A stretch of DNA of 8,152 bases from Bacillota bacterium. Its GTDB lineage: Bacteria; Bacillota; Dethiobacteria; DTU022; JAAZDR01. Shown here piece after piece: positions 1 through 5,893 of this stretch. The notes under the pieces were generated by a model. It was not told the origin of the DNA. It saw nothing but the letters and a program-made list of their open reading frames with translations, and ran no database searches. Location of the stretch: positions 1 through 8,152 of the forward strand of contig JAAZDR010000082.1 of NCBI GenBank assembly GCA_012512705.1, in the 5' to 3' direction. Within the stretch, counting starts at the first letter, position 1; each line of letters starts with the position of its first letter. The translations under genes were made by a program, and so were the position numbers.

Positions 1-603
1 GCTTTCTGTCAAACGCCCGCCAACCAGACTGCCCGCCAACCAGACTTAAAGCCTGCTGAGCCTGTTTTATCTCTATCTCTGCTTTGGGGCCCTTGTAGGC
101 AATCAAAAAACCAAATTTCTGCACAAAAGGAAGCGCAATCTCCACTAAAACAGGTAGGGCGGCAACTGCTCTGGAGACGACCAGTGGGAACTGCTCTCGA
201 TACAGTGGATCATGTGCGTAATCTTCTGCTCTTCCCCAAAGGACGGCAATCCTATGCATAACTAAATTCTCTTTGACGTGTTCAATAAATTCAAGTCTCT
301 TTTCTTCGCGTCCAAAAAAACAACTTCTAAATCCGGACGTAATATTTTCAACGGTATGCCCGGGAACCCTCCCCCGGTACCTAAATCTAAAACACGTGCA
401 CCCTCTTTTGGCTGGCAAAACTTTAAAAGTGAAACTGAATCTAAAAAATGTTGAATGTAACCATCTTCAGAAACGCTGGGAACGAGGTTCATCACCGTAT
501 TTCTTTTTTTTAAAAGCACATAATGTTTCTCAATCTTCTCGCCGCATGAAGGAGGAATCTGCAGTCCGAAATCTATGGCCGCATTTTTAAGTCTCTCAAA
601 AAT
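1..603 (-). pseudogene. rsmG: 16S rRNA (guanine527-N7)-methyltransferase RsmG, disrupted and partial
   Basis: Homology is continuous to the left edge but no single reading frame is intact. RsmG methylates G527 of 16S rRNA using SAM. The first segment reads FERLKNAAIDFGLQ, then MNLV, HFLDSVSLLK and the SAM-binding LDLGTGGGFPGIPL. It stops at 262-264 after FLDAKK. The rest continues in another frame as KRLEFIEHVKENL, GRAEDYA, VVSRAVAALPVLVE and LIAYKGPKAE. Three lesions are visible. The family-length start is ATT (601-603), overlapping the mnmG stop as TAATT where TAATG is expected; SD-like AGGGAG lies at 608-613. One nucleotide is missing around 296-308. A perfect 16-bp tandem duplication (15-46) breaks the frame after LVGG; removing one copy restores LVGGRLTES. 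The first standard start, GTG at 517-519, would lose about 28 residues. Probably a recent pseudogene. The homopolymer shift alone could be a sequencing error; the duplication is harder to explain that way. The 3' end lies outside the window. Confidence 0.88.
15..46. repeat. perfect 16-bp tandem duplication inside rsmG
   Basis: The unit GCCCGCCAACCAGACT occurs twice back to back (15-30 and 31-46) with no mismatch. Sixteen is not a multiple of three, so the duplication shifts the rsmG frame. Collapsing it to one copy restores a normal RsmG-like run (ALSLVGGRLTES). This fits a recent replication-slippage duplication. Confidence 0.95.
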
Positions 604-2504
604 TAATCTCCCTCTTCCTTTCTACTCCTTTGCTCAAGATAGAGATGCAGAAGGGAGATATCAGCCGGTGTAATCCCGGAAATACGAGAGGCCTGCCCCA
701 GGGACTGAGGCAAAAACTGCTGTAGTTTATCCTTTGCCTCTAATGATAGGCCGCTGACTTTTGTATAGTCAAACTGCGGTGGAATCTTTTTATTCTCCCA
801 TTTACGGAAACGTTTAACCTGCTCCTCCTGCTTCTTAATATAGCCGGCATATTTTATTTGAATTTCAACCTGTTCTTTAACGACTTCTGGTAATTCGGGA
901 GGATCATTGTCCAATCCACTTTGCTGAAGTTTATGATAATTGAATTCCGGACGGCGTAAAAGCTGCGCCAAACTAGTTGGGCTGTTTAAGGGTGCGCTGC
1001 CCATAGCCTCCATAATTTTTTGTCTCTCTTTCGTTGGTGTAATCACAACCTCTTCCAAGCGTGAGAGTTCACGTGCAATCATCTCTTTCTTTTTTAGAAA
1101 AGCATTATAGCGCTGTTCTGAAATTAGCCCGAGATCATAGCCAAGCGGCGTAAGCCGCATATCCGCATTATCATGTCTTAAAAGCAGCCTGTATTCTGCA
1201 CGAGATGTTAGCATTCTGTATGGGTCTATAGTTCCTTTCAGTACAAGATCATCAATTAAAACGCCTATATACGCCTGAGAGCGATCGAGCACAAGCGGCT
1301 TCTCTTCTTTAATTTTTAATGCAGCATTGATCCCGGCAATGATCCCCTGTGCAGCAGCTTCTTCATAACCGGAGGTGCCGTTGATCTGACCGGCAAAGAA
1401 AATTCCCTCCACTGTTTTTAATTCAAGAGTCGGCTTTAATTGGGTTGGATCAAGGCAATCATATTCAATAGCATAGCCGGGACGAATAAGTTTCACGTTT
1501 TCCATTCCTGGAATACTCCGCAGCATCGCCACCTGCACATCTTCAGGCAAAGAAGTTGACAGCCCCTGAACATAGAGCTCCTTCGCGTTAGCGTCTTCCG
1601 GTTCTAAAAAAACTTGGTGCTGCTCCTTATCGGCAAAACGGACTACTTTAGTTTCAATAGAAGGGCAATAACGTGGACCTACACCCTTAAGGTGTCCACT
1701 ATATAAGGGGGAACGGTGCAAATTATCCTGAATTATCTGATGCGTTTCTGCAGTAGTATGAGTAAGCCAGCAGGGAAGTTGCGGTCTTAACGGCGGTTTT
1801 TGTTCAAGATGTTCAAAAGAGAAAAAAGGCGCATCATCTTCACCATATTGAGCCTCCATTTTTTCAAGATCTACAGAACTGCGGGCCACTCTCGGTGGTG
1901 TGTCCGTTTTAAACCGTCTAAGCTTACAGCCCAATTCCTGCAAGTGGAGGCTGAGATCAATTGAGGGTCTTAAGCCGTTTGGGCCACCGCTGTAAACAAG
2001 TTCACCAATAATAATCCTCCCTTTAAGATAAGTTCCTGATGTAACCACCAAACATTTAGCCTTAAAAAAGGCTCCCGTCTCTGTCTCCACCCCGCTTGCC
2101 CTTCCATTTTTAACCAAAATTCGGGTAACTACAGCTTGCCGCAAATCAAGATTTGCGGTGTTCGCTAATACCGTACGCATATTGCGCTGATAAAGCTCCT
2201 TATCAACCTGTGCCCGTAAAGCACGCACAGCTGGCCCTTTCCCCGTATTCAACATCCGGTGCTGTAAATAAGAAATATCAACAATTTTCCCCATCTGACC
2301 ACCAAGAGCATCTACTTCTCTCACCAGATGACCTTTTGCCGGACCACCAACAGCCGGGTTGCAGGGCATCAGCGCAATACCTTCAATGCTTATTGTTAGC
2401 AATAACGTTTTCATGCCCATCCGGGCTGCTGCAAGTGCTGCTTCACAGCCGGCATGTCCGGCACCGACTACCAGTACATCATATTCACCTGCCAGGTAGC
2501 TCAA
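603..2504 (-). CDS. mnmG: tRNA uridine-34 5-carboxymethylaminomethyl synthesis enzyme MnmG (GidA)
   Basis: FAD-dependent partner of MnmE. The complex installs (carboxymethyl)aminomethyl groups at C5 of wobble U34 in tRNAs reading codons that end in A or G. Residues here count from the upstream GTG at 2513. The dinucleotide-binding motif VVGAGHAG is at 15-22, MPCNPAVGG at 49-57, the GidA signature [15 protein letters not shown] at 279-293 with the expected Cys283, and [17 protein letters not shown] at 374-390. The C-terminus ends with [16 protein letters not shown], so the protein is full length. I prefer the TTG at 2504: AGGTGA lies at 2510-2515, and the product begins [10 protein letters not shown] as in the family. 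The GTG at 2513 abuts the mnmE stop and has only GGAAAG 3 nt away. Odd point: the conserved KTGTPPR reads KTDTPPR (202-208). The stop codon overlaps the ATT of rsmG by one base. Confidence 0.97.
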
Positions 2505-2513
2505 TAAGCTCAC

Positions 2514-3917
2514 CTACTTTCCAACACAAAATTGCTCAAATATTTTATTTATAACCGCCTCCGATAACGTTTCCCCGGTGAGCTCCCCAAGGGCATTCCA
2601 GGCTTCACGTATATCAATTGCTACTAGATCAAGCGGTGTCCGCTTCGCGACCTCGTTCAGGGCCGCGTTAAAGTGCGCATAAGCTACCTCTAGCCTCTTC
2701 TTCTGCCGCAGATTAAAAACGAGGTTGCTGTCTGGAGTGTTCGCTTTTCCTTTAAAAACCATCTCCACAATCTTCGCTTCCAATTCTTCTAATCCCAAAC
2801 CCTTGGTCACTGCAGTTTTTTGAAAGTCAAAGCCCGGAAAACATTTGTTCAACTCTTCCTTGCTGATATTGTTACCTAGATCAATTTTATTGAGAACTAG
2901 CAGGGCCGGCTGTTCCTCAATAAGTTCAAAAATCACCAGATCGCTCTCCGTAATGCCTTCTGAAGCGTCAAGAACAAAAAGAATTAAATCCGCAGCTCTA
3001 ATTACTTCTTTAGATCTCTGAATACCGTGCTTCTCCACGATATCTTCCGTGTCCTGGATCCCAGCCGTATCAATTATGCGTAAGGGAATACCCTTTAAGT
3101 TCAAGTATTCCTCTAATAAGTCCCTAGTCGTTCCCGGTATATCGGTAACAATCGCCCGCTGTTGTCGTAAAAGTGCATTCAATAACGAAGATTTACCGAC
3201 ATTTGGTCTTCCAATAATCGCTGTTTTTAGCCCCTCATGAATTATCCGCCCCTGATCTGCGCCGTCAATCATTTTGCGCAGCTTAATAACAATATTTTGC
3301 AATCGCTGAGAGGCATATTCAAAATCCATTTCTTCTAAATCATCTTCTGGATAATCATGGACAGCCTCTATCTCCGCCAATACCTCCACCGTTTCCGCAC
3401 GCAGCTTCTTAATTTCGGCTGAAAGCCTGCCATCCAGCTGCTGCATCGCTGTTGTAAGTGCTTTTTTCGTTTTTGCATTGACAATATTTAACACGGATTC
3501 AGCCTGGATGAGATCAATCCTGCCGTTCAAAAAAGCCCTTTTTGTAAATTCTCCAGGCTCAGCTAGACGGGCTCCCTTACGCAACAAAAGCTCCAAAACT
3601 TGCCGCACCGGGACTATCCCGCCATGACAGTTTATTTCAGCCATATTTTCACGCGTATAAGTGTGTGGTGCTTTCATAAATGATACGAGAACCTCGTCCA
3701 AAACGGTATTACCGTCTTTTATGATACCATAGTAAAGATGATGGGAACGTGGGGAATTGATCTTTTTTTGTTTTTTATAATAGAAAATTTCCATAACGAT
3801 ATCCCAGGCTTTCTCTCCGCTTAAGCGAACGATGCTGATTCCTCCTTCGCCGATCGGCGTAGAGATCGCGCAGATCGTATCCTGTTCGTTATTAAGAAGA
3901 TTATTTTGCAACTCCAT
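2514..3917 (-). CDS. mnmE: tRNA modification GTPase MnmE (TrmE)
   Basis: GTPase that acts with MnmG on U34 of tRNAs and uses a tetrahydrofolate-derived C1 unit. The 467-residue product has the full family architecture. The N-terminal folate-binding domain starts AISTPIGEGGISIVRLSG (17-34). The helical region includes PGEFTKRAFLNGRIDL (121-136). The inserted G domain has G1 GRPNVGKS (236-243), G2 TTRD (263-266), G3 DTAG (283-286) and G4 NKID (343-346). The C-terminus FEQFCVGK carries the conserved Cys of FCIGK-type ends. I chose the ATG at 3917 because AGGAGG lies 3 nt upstream and the family begins close to the DTI-AISTPIGEGG motif. An in-frame ATG at 3980 would add 21 unlike residues translated through a terminator hairpin. 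The gene follows jag after an intrinsic terminator, and its stop abuts the alternative mnmG GTG, so mnmE, mnmG and rsmG form one transcript. Confidence 0.97.
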   Translation of the reverse strand: MELQNNLLNNEQDTICAISTPIGEGGISIVRLSGEKAWDIVMEIFYYKKQKKINSPRSHHLYYGIIKDGNTVLDEVLVSFMKAPHTYTRENMAEINCHGGIVPVRQVLELLLRKGARLAEPGEFTKRAFLNGRIDLIQAESVLNIVNAKTKKALTTAMQQLDGRLSAEIKKLRAETVEVLAEIEAVHDYPEDDLEEMDFEYASQRLQNIVIKLRKMIDGADQGRIIHEGLKTAIIGRPNVGKSSLLNALLRQQRAIVTDIPGTTRDLLEEYLNLKGIPLRIIDTAGIQDTEDIVEKHGIQRSKEVIRAADLILFVLDASEGITESDLVIFELIEEQPALLVLNKIDLGNNISKEELNKCFPGFDFQKTAVTKGLGLEELEAKIVEMVFKGKANTPDSNLVFNLRQKKRLEVAYAHFNAALNEVAKRTPLDLVAIDIREAWNALGELTGETLSEAVINKIFEQFCVGK

Positions 3918-4005: not shown

Positions 4006-4635
4006 CTATTTCAAAGAGATGACCACCTTACGGTTCGGATCTTCACCTTTGCTGCATGTGACAACATAAGGGTTATCCTGAAGTGCCAAATGAATAATGC
4101 GACGTTCTTGGGGTGTCATCGGTTCCAAAGTGATCTGCTCTTTTTTTTGCACTACTTTACGGGCCAAATTGAGGGCAAGGTTTTTTAAAGTTTTTTCTCT
4201 TTTCTGCCGATAATTTTCAATATCTAACAAAACTTTCTTCTGTAAACCCTTAAACTGACGGCGCAAGACGATATTCAATAGATATTGCAAAGCATTTAAA
4301 GTTTGCCCGCGTCGGCCAATCAATACACCTAGATCATCACCGGTGATCTCCACAGAGATAATTTCGGGTTCGCTCTCTATAATTCGCACCTGCGCTTTAT
4401 TATAACCCATACAGTCCAAAATTTTCGTCAATAGTTCAATTAGGTATTCCTGGGGCTCATATTTAACCCTAACTCTTACTTGAGCTTCGCGCGAGCCAAA
4501 AACCCCCAAAAAACCGCTGCTCGGTTCGTTTAAAACCTCGATATCAGCATTGCTTCTTTTAATAATATTTAATTTGTTTAAGGCTATCTCCACTGCTTCC
4601 TCAACAGTTTTTGCAGTGATCTCAATCTCTTTCAT
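4006..4635 (-). CDS. jag: RNA-binding protein Jag/KhpB (Jag-N, KH, R3H domains)
   Basis: Single-stranded-RNA-binding protein usually encoded next to yidC in Firmicutes; in some species it partners KhpA and affects cell division and envelope growth. The 209 residues hold three parts in order. The Jag N-terminal domain (about 1-55) runs from ITAKTVEEAVEIALNKL to the GFLGVFG motif. A KH domain (about 75-148) has the GXXG loop as IGRRG in DDLGVLIGRRGQTLNALQ. An R3H domain (about 150-209) has the motif as ERRIIHLAL, followed by KGEDPNRKVVI. The linker between the first two domains is short. Its ATG overlaps the yidC stop in a 4-nt ATGA (4632-4635), so translation is likely coupled to yidC. The terminator at 3927-3963 follows. 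Confidence 0.95.
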   Translation of the reverse strand: MKEIEITAKTVEEAVEIALNKLNIIKRSNADIEVLNEPSSGFLGVFGSREAQVRVRVKYEPQEYLIELLTKILDCMGYNKAQVRIIESEPEIISVEITGDDLGVLIGRRGQTLNALQYLLNIVLRRQFKGLQKKVLLDIENYRQKREKTLKNLALNLARKVVQKKEQITLEPMTPQERRIIHLALQDNPYVVTCSKGEDPNRKVVISLK

Positions 4636-5288
4636 TGCTCTTTCACCGCCTTCTCAACACTGGGGCGATTGACTAATAGATGCTGTCCCACAGTTAAAAT
4701 ATTATTCATTATCCAGTAAAGAACAAGGCCTGAAGGAAAGTTAATACTAAGAATCAAGAGCATTGCCGGCATAACATAGAGCATCGTTTTTTGATTAGGG
4801 TCAGTGATCATCAATTTTTGTTGCCAAAATGTCGTTAGGCCGGCAAGAACAGGAAGGATATAATATGGATCTGGCTCTAAAAGGCTAATCAGCTCCAAGT
4901 TGGGGAAAAGATAAGGTGTAAAGCCGGGAACCATCTCTAACCTTGAAGGATTTTCGCGTAAAAGGTTGAAAATAGAGATCAAAATAGGAAACTGTACTAA
5001 TAAAGGCAGACAGCCCGCTAAAGGGTTAACATTGTTTTTTTGCATAAACTCCATCGTTGCTTTATTCAGCTTTTCTTTATCATTTTTATATTTTTGTTGG
5101 ATCTTCTTTAGTTCAGGTTGAATTTCCTGCATTTTTTTTGCTGACTGCATCTGCTTTTTATTAAGTGGATATGTAATAATTTTAACCAAAACAGTTAAAA
5201 TAATAATTGATACTCCATAATTAGGAACAAGATTTACATAAAAAAACTTTAATAGCACGCCAAAAAAATCAATGATCGAGCCTGACAT
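4632..5288 (-). CDS. yidC: membrane protein insertase YidC/Oxa1 (SpoIIIJ type)
   Basis: Inserts and folds inner-membrane proteins, alone or with SecYEG. The product of about 218 residues is the short Gram-positive form without the large periplasmic domain of proteobacterial YidC. The first membrane segment (VSIIILTVLVKIITYPL) is followed by the basic cytoplasmic hairpin KKQMQSAKKMQEIQPELKK, a QKNNVNPLAGCLPLL motif leading into the next segment, and further hydrophobic segments around YYILPVLAGL and LYVMPAMLLILSINFPSGLVLYWI. The Lys in LVKIITYPL sits where an Arg or Lys is found in the hydrophilic groove. I see no lipobox or long signal peptide at the N-terminus. I chose the ATG at 5288, with GGAGGGG upstream; the adjacent in-frame TTG at 5291 is too close to that site. 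yidD lies 30 nt upstream and jag overlaps the stop by 4 nt. Confidence 0.95.
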   Translation of the reverse strand: MSGSIIDFFGVLLKFFYVNLVPNYGVSIIILTVLVKIITYPLNKKQMQSAKKMQEIQPELKKIQQKYKNDKEKLNKATMEFMQKNNVNPLAGCLPLLVQFPILISIFNLLRENPSRLEMVPGFTPYLFPNLELISLLEPDPYYILPVLAGLTTFWQQKLMITDPNQKTMLYVMPAMLLILSINFPSGLVLYWIMNNILTVGQHLLVNRPSVEKAVKEQ

Positions 5289-5318
5289 CAATTCCCCTCC
5301 TCAATCTATACCCTACAT

Positions 5319-5567
5319 TCACTGCAAAGGATCATAGCCCCCTGGATGAAAGGGATGACAGCGTAGAATACGTTTTAAAAAAAGATAGCAGCCTTTCAAA
5401 GCACCGTAACGCTGAATCGCTTCGAGACTATATTGCGAACAAGTAGGGTAAAATCTACAGCTCGGTCTCTTTAAAGGCGAAATAAGTTTCTGATAAAAAA
5501 GGATTATTAAAACTAAAAAGTATTTTATGCTTATTTTTGAGGCCAACTTTTTCCAGTAATCTTTCAA
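5319..5567 (-). CDS. yidD: membrane protein insertion efficiency factor YidD
   Basis: Small membrane-associated protein thought to assist YidC-dependent insertion. The 82 residues show the family core almost unchanged: a hydrophobic N-terminal helix ([12 protein letters not shown]), then [22 protein letters not shown] with its two Cys, a YGALKG segment and the C-terminal [15 protein letters not shown]. There is no ATG. The TTG at 5567 has a near-perfect SD (AAAGAGGTGA, 5577-5586) 9 nt upstream. A second TTG at 5546 would give a 75-residue protein closer to the usual N-terminal length but with a weaker site. The first part overlaps the 3' end of rnpA in a different frame, by up to 113 nt, so translation of the two is probably linked. 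Confidence 0.93.
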
Positions 5568-5874
5568 TATTATTGCTCACCTCTTTAAAACCGGCAACAG
5601 AAGCTTTTTTTCTAGCAATAAACACAAAATCATACCCTTGTTCTATTTTATCCTGCTGTAAAAGGAACGATTCAAAAATTAACCGTCGAATGCGATTGCG
5701 AACGACGCTGTTACCAACTTTTTTACTTATTGAAAACCCGATACGATTAAACTTTAGACCATTGGCAATATAATACATGACAATATAATGCTGAGCAAGA
5801 GATTTACCCTTACGGTATACTTTTAAAAAATCGTGATTTTTTTTAAGTCGTTTAAAATTTACCCCATTATACAC
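5455..5874 (-). CDS. rnpA: ribonuclease P protein component
   Basis: Protein subunit of RNase P; it helps the catalytic RNA bind pre-tRNA 5' leaders. The family signatures are clear. The N-terminus reads [19 protein letters not shown], and the basic RNR motif [14 protein letters not shown] (52-65) is followed by [15 protein letters not shown] comes later, with the final conserved helix [12 protein letters not shown] ending near residue 112. The remaining 27 residues (to 139) are an unusual tail encoded inside the yidD gene in another frame. The start is GTG at 5874. No ATG is available in frame, and only a weak AAGAG precedes it, so initiation may depend on rpmH translation or on opening of the hairpin at 5894-5940. 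Transcription comes from the rpmH promoter. Confidence 0.95.
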
Positions 5875-5893
5875 AACTCTTACTCTTAAAATA

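Follow-up and report, generated by a model that had tools for sequence, protein, structure and literature searches.

Has this bacterium recently lost rsmG, or does the broken copy at the edge of its contig reflect damage in a draft assembly? If real, this would be a natural example of a lost rRNA methylation in the decoding centre, found in a bacterium not yet described, and the class may hold a second one. Otherwise, it illustrates that the contig end of a patchy draft can mimic a pseudogene and that reads are needed for claims of this sort.

The window, which is the whole stretch of DNA analysed, comprises all 8152 bases of contig C29, with position 1 at the contig end. It belongs to a draft genome (G000) of 1,536,344 bases in 327 contigs that is 87% complete, and a limited literature search found nothing on this organism. 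The window carries dnaN (its start), dnaA, rpmH, rnpA, yidD, yidC, jag, mnmE, mnmG and rsmG, with rsmG at the left end on the minus strand; rpmH and dnaN were named by reading the sequence. A search of the window for RNA families at the gathering cut-off gave no match. No genome of the same genus or family is present among the 59 relatives from the order, where mnmG identity reaches at most 58%. The highest mnmG identity among named genomes is 61%, and the best RsmG outside the window has 54% local identity.

The rsmG remnant and its lesions

The features at issue are as follows.

1 to 608, minus strand: rsmG remnant, broken and cut by the contig end, with two pieces that each match Pfam GidB and TIGR00138
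2 to 301, minus strand: C-terminal RsmG frame, reaching the contig end
15 to 46, minus strand: exact, frame-shifting 16-bp tandem duplication, lying 14 bases inside the contig
262 to 600, minus strand: N-terminal RsmG frame with the SAM-binding stretch DLGTGGGFPG and a stop at its end
297 to 310, minus strand: zone in which the RsmG homology switches frame
314 to 320, minus strand: run of seven T (minus-strand letters), a slippery-looking heptamer just before the frame switch
601 to 606, minus strand: codons TTA ATT at the expected rsmG start, with no ATG, GTG or TTG, overlapping the mnmG stop
608 to 621, minus strand: purine-rich stretch AAAGGAAGAGGGAG ahead of the rsmG start, putatively ribosome-binding as judged from its sequence
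603 to 2513, minus strand: mnmG, full length (TIGR00136, 896.7 bits)
2514 to 3917, minus strand: mnmE, full length (TIGR00450, 430 bits)

RsmG homology starts at about position 600 and runs on the minus strand to the contig end. RsmG/GidB (PF02527, TIGR00138), the 16S rRNA m7G527 methyltransferase, is the best family for both pieces. The stretch 262–618 on the minus strand matches positions 3–90 of Pfam GidB (E 2.1e-19, 70 bits) and the stretch 2–466 on the same strand matches positions 80–166 (E 1.3e-14, 54.4 bits), each separately exceeding the PF02527 cut-off of 27 bits. TIGR00138 also matches both pieces, with 71.8 and 55.2 bits, each below its cut-off of 99.5 bits. Searching with relatives' frames by tblastn located the switch in the same zone as the profile pieces. 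The SAM-binding motif of the GxGxGxPG type is kept as DLGTGGGFPG, and rsmG follows mnmG, as it does in most named relatives examined. Unlike a standard RsmG gene, the window copy has a split frame and a duplication, and lacks both a usual start and the gene end; a membership check looking for one continuous frame with a usable start did not find it here.

The 16-mer GCCCGCCAACCAGACT is present twice in tandem, at 15–30 and 31–46, with a 100% match. Allowing up to one mismatch, these two copies are its only occurrences in the genome. Four exact tandem duplications with a period of 10–120 were found in 255 kb, and the one in rsmG is the only one less than 400 bases from an end. No foreign sequence was found within rsmG itself. 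Since the contig ends at position 1, the last part of the gene is absent; judged by the length of relatives, about 40 codons would lie beyond it, as do the K, T, P, R and P columns that the RsmG alignment shows as conserved at the C-terminus. A search for a contig sharing the window's first 120 bases, and thus possibly continuing rsmG, gave only matches of about 14–21 bases.

These results bear out what the first-pass annotation had read from this locus, namely an RsmG recognisable from its N-terminus to the window edge, a frameshift (now placed at about 297–310 by two-frame Pfam and TIGR00138 matches), a 16-bp duplication, and full-length mnmG and mnmE beside them. The proposed third lesion, a non-standard start, is less certain as a lesion. 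There is indeed no ATG, GTG or TTG at the expected site, which overlaps the mnmG stop TAA at 605–603, and in two relatives (L058 and L061) the matching position holds a standard start codon. The first in-frame ATG, GTG or TTG is a GTG at 519, which would cost about 28 residues. First-codon calls in the window's gene cluster include GTG and TTG, and TTA and ATT are both unusual; it is uncertain whether the start codon is a genuine lesion.

We favour the reading that rsmG, with its frame shift, its 16-bp duplication and no usual start, is a recently lost gene, with a probability of about 0.5. The frame changes would then be present in the organism itself, and translation would end at 262 and leave RsmG incomplete; either frame change alone would suffice to inactivate the gene. 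G527 of 16S rRNA would stay unmethylated, m7G527 would be absent, and the cell would be expected to tolerate low streptomycin. According to PMC9456066, several bacteria gain low-level resistance to streptomycin when rsmG is mutated, and the loss mutants it describes in E. coli, M. tuberculosis, B. subtilis, S. coelicolor and Deinococcus were inactivated by point, frame-shift or insertion mutations. Unlike those mutants, the window rsmG has several lesions together and no known selection or phenotype. Some Mollicutes are without rsmG, according to PMC4014445. In PMC10117853, rsmG mutants are reported to be less fit under tobramycin, so the effect of rsmG on aminoglycosides is not uniform. This kind of event is already known, and would be of more interest only if its recurrence in the class were proven.

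A second methyltransferase gene had been suggested as compensation. A PF02527 profile search of the genome returned only the two pieces already described, within the readable part of an 87% complete draft; 58 of its contigs were examined, of which 20, all short, consist of N only and 38 hold letters (255,391 bp).

It is very improbable that the gene is instead rescued by recoding, with initiation at an AUU behind a strong ribosome-binding site followed by –1 slippage on the run of seven T. AUU is an allowed rare start codon, the purine-rich stretch at 608–621 would suit such a start, and T TTT TTG lies in the right frame at 319–313, where a slip would yield a protein of the fitting length. However, no stable fold lies downstream of the run (z 0.85), and programmed frame shifting was rejected on this ground. 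Slippage would also replace the acidic residue that follows the second strand and presumably binds SAM, the 16-bp duplication breaks the frame again, and the rsmG of relatives is in one frame.

Possible damage at the contig end and the state of the draft

Recent loss is favoured over assembly or consensus damage, which is nearly as likely. Damage would have arisen where coverage was thin, at the end of a contig in a patchy metagenome bin, and the organism's own rsmG would function, perhaps from a weak start codon. The gene lies at the contig end, its duplication is 14 bases from position 1, and odd loci occur in the same draft; all of this speaks against loss and for damage. However, two of the three features lie 300–600 bases inside the contig. 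The features spread over 600 bases, with the switch about 300 and the start about 600 bases from the end, which would put these two beyond the reach of one short read from there.

We surveyed the draft for split genes with 3,911 reading frames of relatives as queries against the 38 readable contigs, of which 88,662 bp were covered. The survey flagged rsmG (36 query pairs, all at 236–358) and two adjacent pairs of complete ATPase-like genes. No split gene other than rsmG was found in these 88.7 kb, of which 14,853 bp lie no more than 600 bases from another contig end; this argues against assembly damage. A codon-model scan of the organism's contigs gave 8 switches in 230,878 coding bp, made up of rsmG, six neighbouring-gene pairs and a trxB-cshA join. 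The six pairs (yidC/jag, one pair each on L034, L040, L209 and L213, and a transposase-like pair on L118) were rejected as split genes; they are pairs of neighbouring genes, named in part from their translations.

The odd loci lie on two other contigs and weigh for assembly damage. On contig C48 (L211), at about 3396, the start of a thioredoxin reductase (1–103 of 300) is fused to the end of a CshA helicase (222–431 of 434), probably a chimeric join. The second locus emerged from a search for 16S sequence: on contig C256 (L116), a gerA gene at 4322–5878 is fragmented, matching its profile at 3–172 and 248–465 with a third, weak piece at 180–215. A 46-base fragment of the 16S 530 loop lies at 5129–5174 on the minus strand of this contig, with gerA sequence on both flanks, and an intact GerA is present on contig C240. 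The locus may have arisen by an odd join during assembly, or else by a filler insertion into a paralogue that had decayed. It falls outside the compared 88.7 kb and was flagged by neither survey; both surveys are thus incomplete in sensitivity. Overall, reading frames in this draft are mostly clean, with some odd loci.

A protein collection lists an MnmE identical over its length to that encoded at 2514–3917. It comes from a 15,160-base contig, and this suggests that the organism has been assembled a second time. Searching the collection with the C-terminal piece returned no RsmG above 54% identity besides the window's own fragment. That these searches gave no close full-length RsmG, although an identical MnmE is listed, argues against assembly damage and is consistent with loss, but also with a 15,160-base contig that stops short of rsmG.

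Constraint and rsmG across the class

The window departs from the alignment at 3 of the 37 columns that are at least 85% conserved across 90 relatives; 37 of those relatives have as many differences or more (L004, L099 and database proteins shorter than 200 aa were not part of the reference alignment). Every column with a conservation of 1.0 that the pieces cover is kept. The near-invariant residues are not worn, which speaks against loss and favours assembly damage. Their retention also bears on the first-pass description of a fresh pseudogene: the gene is broken, and "fresh" fits the kept residues, with a loss in the organism itself being likely at best.

The two pieces reach 63.9 and 52.8 bits in the rsmG family score, 116.7 bits together. 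Nine of ten relatives were cut at the same place in RsmG and lost 15–18 bits, so the whole-gene equivalent of the window rsmG is about 133 bits. The MnmE score of 186.8 bits predicts 152 bits for rsmG with a residual sd of 11 (66 genomes, without G019, G058 and G080, which have a partial MnmE match), placing the window about 1.8 sd low. Intact rsmG genes scoring at or below the window estimate occur in 8 of 69 class relatives. The low score is a weak sign that may reflect relaxed constraint, or a lineage without near kin.

rsmG is in one frame over the family core in 55 of the 59 order relatives; the remaining four (G002, G048, G049 and G056) have no rsmG or weak matches only. Among 74 other genomes of the class, chosen at a completeness of at least 85% and many of them shared with the order set, rsmG occupies a single frame in 69 and is split in one, G063; the other four (G048, G049, G084 and G086) give weak matches at most. 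MnmE is missing too in G048, G084 and G086, so the region may be absent from those assemblies. The one-frame count across the class speaks for loss, and the near universality of rsmG there also counts in favour of assembly damage. As controls, rsmH has a match in 70 of 74 genomes and MnmE in 71 of 74, G000 included, and neither gene shows neighbouring two-frame pieces on one contig in any of them. Split rsmG in 2 of 71 versus 0 of 141 for the controls is not significant (Fisher p 0.11) in a count that includes the case under test; an excess of split rsmG is suggestive at most.

The rsmG of G063, at about 1570–2308 of its contig C83 (L200), is broken in frame twice and carries a deletion of 7 residues; the congener G062 has an intact copy. 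Neighbouring genes are well conserved between these two genomes, with mnmG 93% identical and 90–95% identity in genes that we take to be ParA- and ParB-like. dN/dS for rsmG is 0.22 over 222 comparable codons, versus 0.05–0.07 in the neighbours. At only 0.22, the loss there, if real, would be recent, and long decay is not demonstrated. Like the window copy, this rsmG combines several frame lesions with intact neighbours. Unlike it, the gene lies mid-contig, its lesions are at other sites and include the 7-residue deletion, and an intact congener exists. That rsmG is being lost repeatedly and of late in this class of Firmicutes-like genomes, independently in G000 and G063, is a doubtful reading. 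m7G527 would then be dispensable or selected against in the habitats of these bacteria, for example by streptomycin-like compounds.

Gene order varies somewhat within the order. In four relatives (G003, G004, G008 and G012) rsmG adjoins mnmE, with mnmG on another contig; the order in the window is mnmE-mnmG-rsmG.
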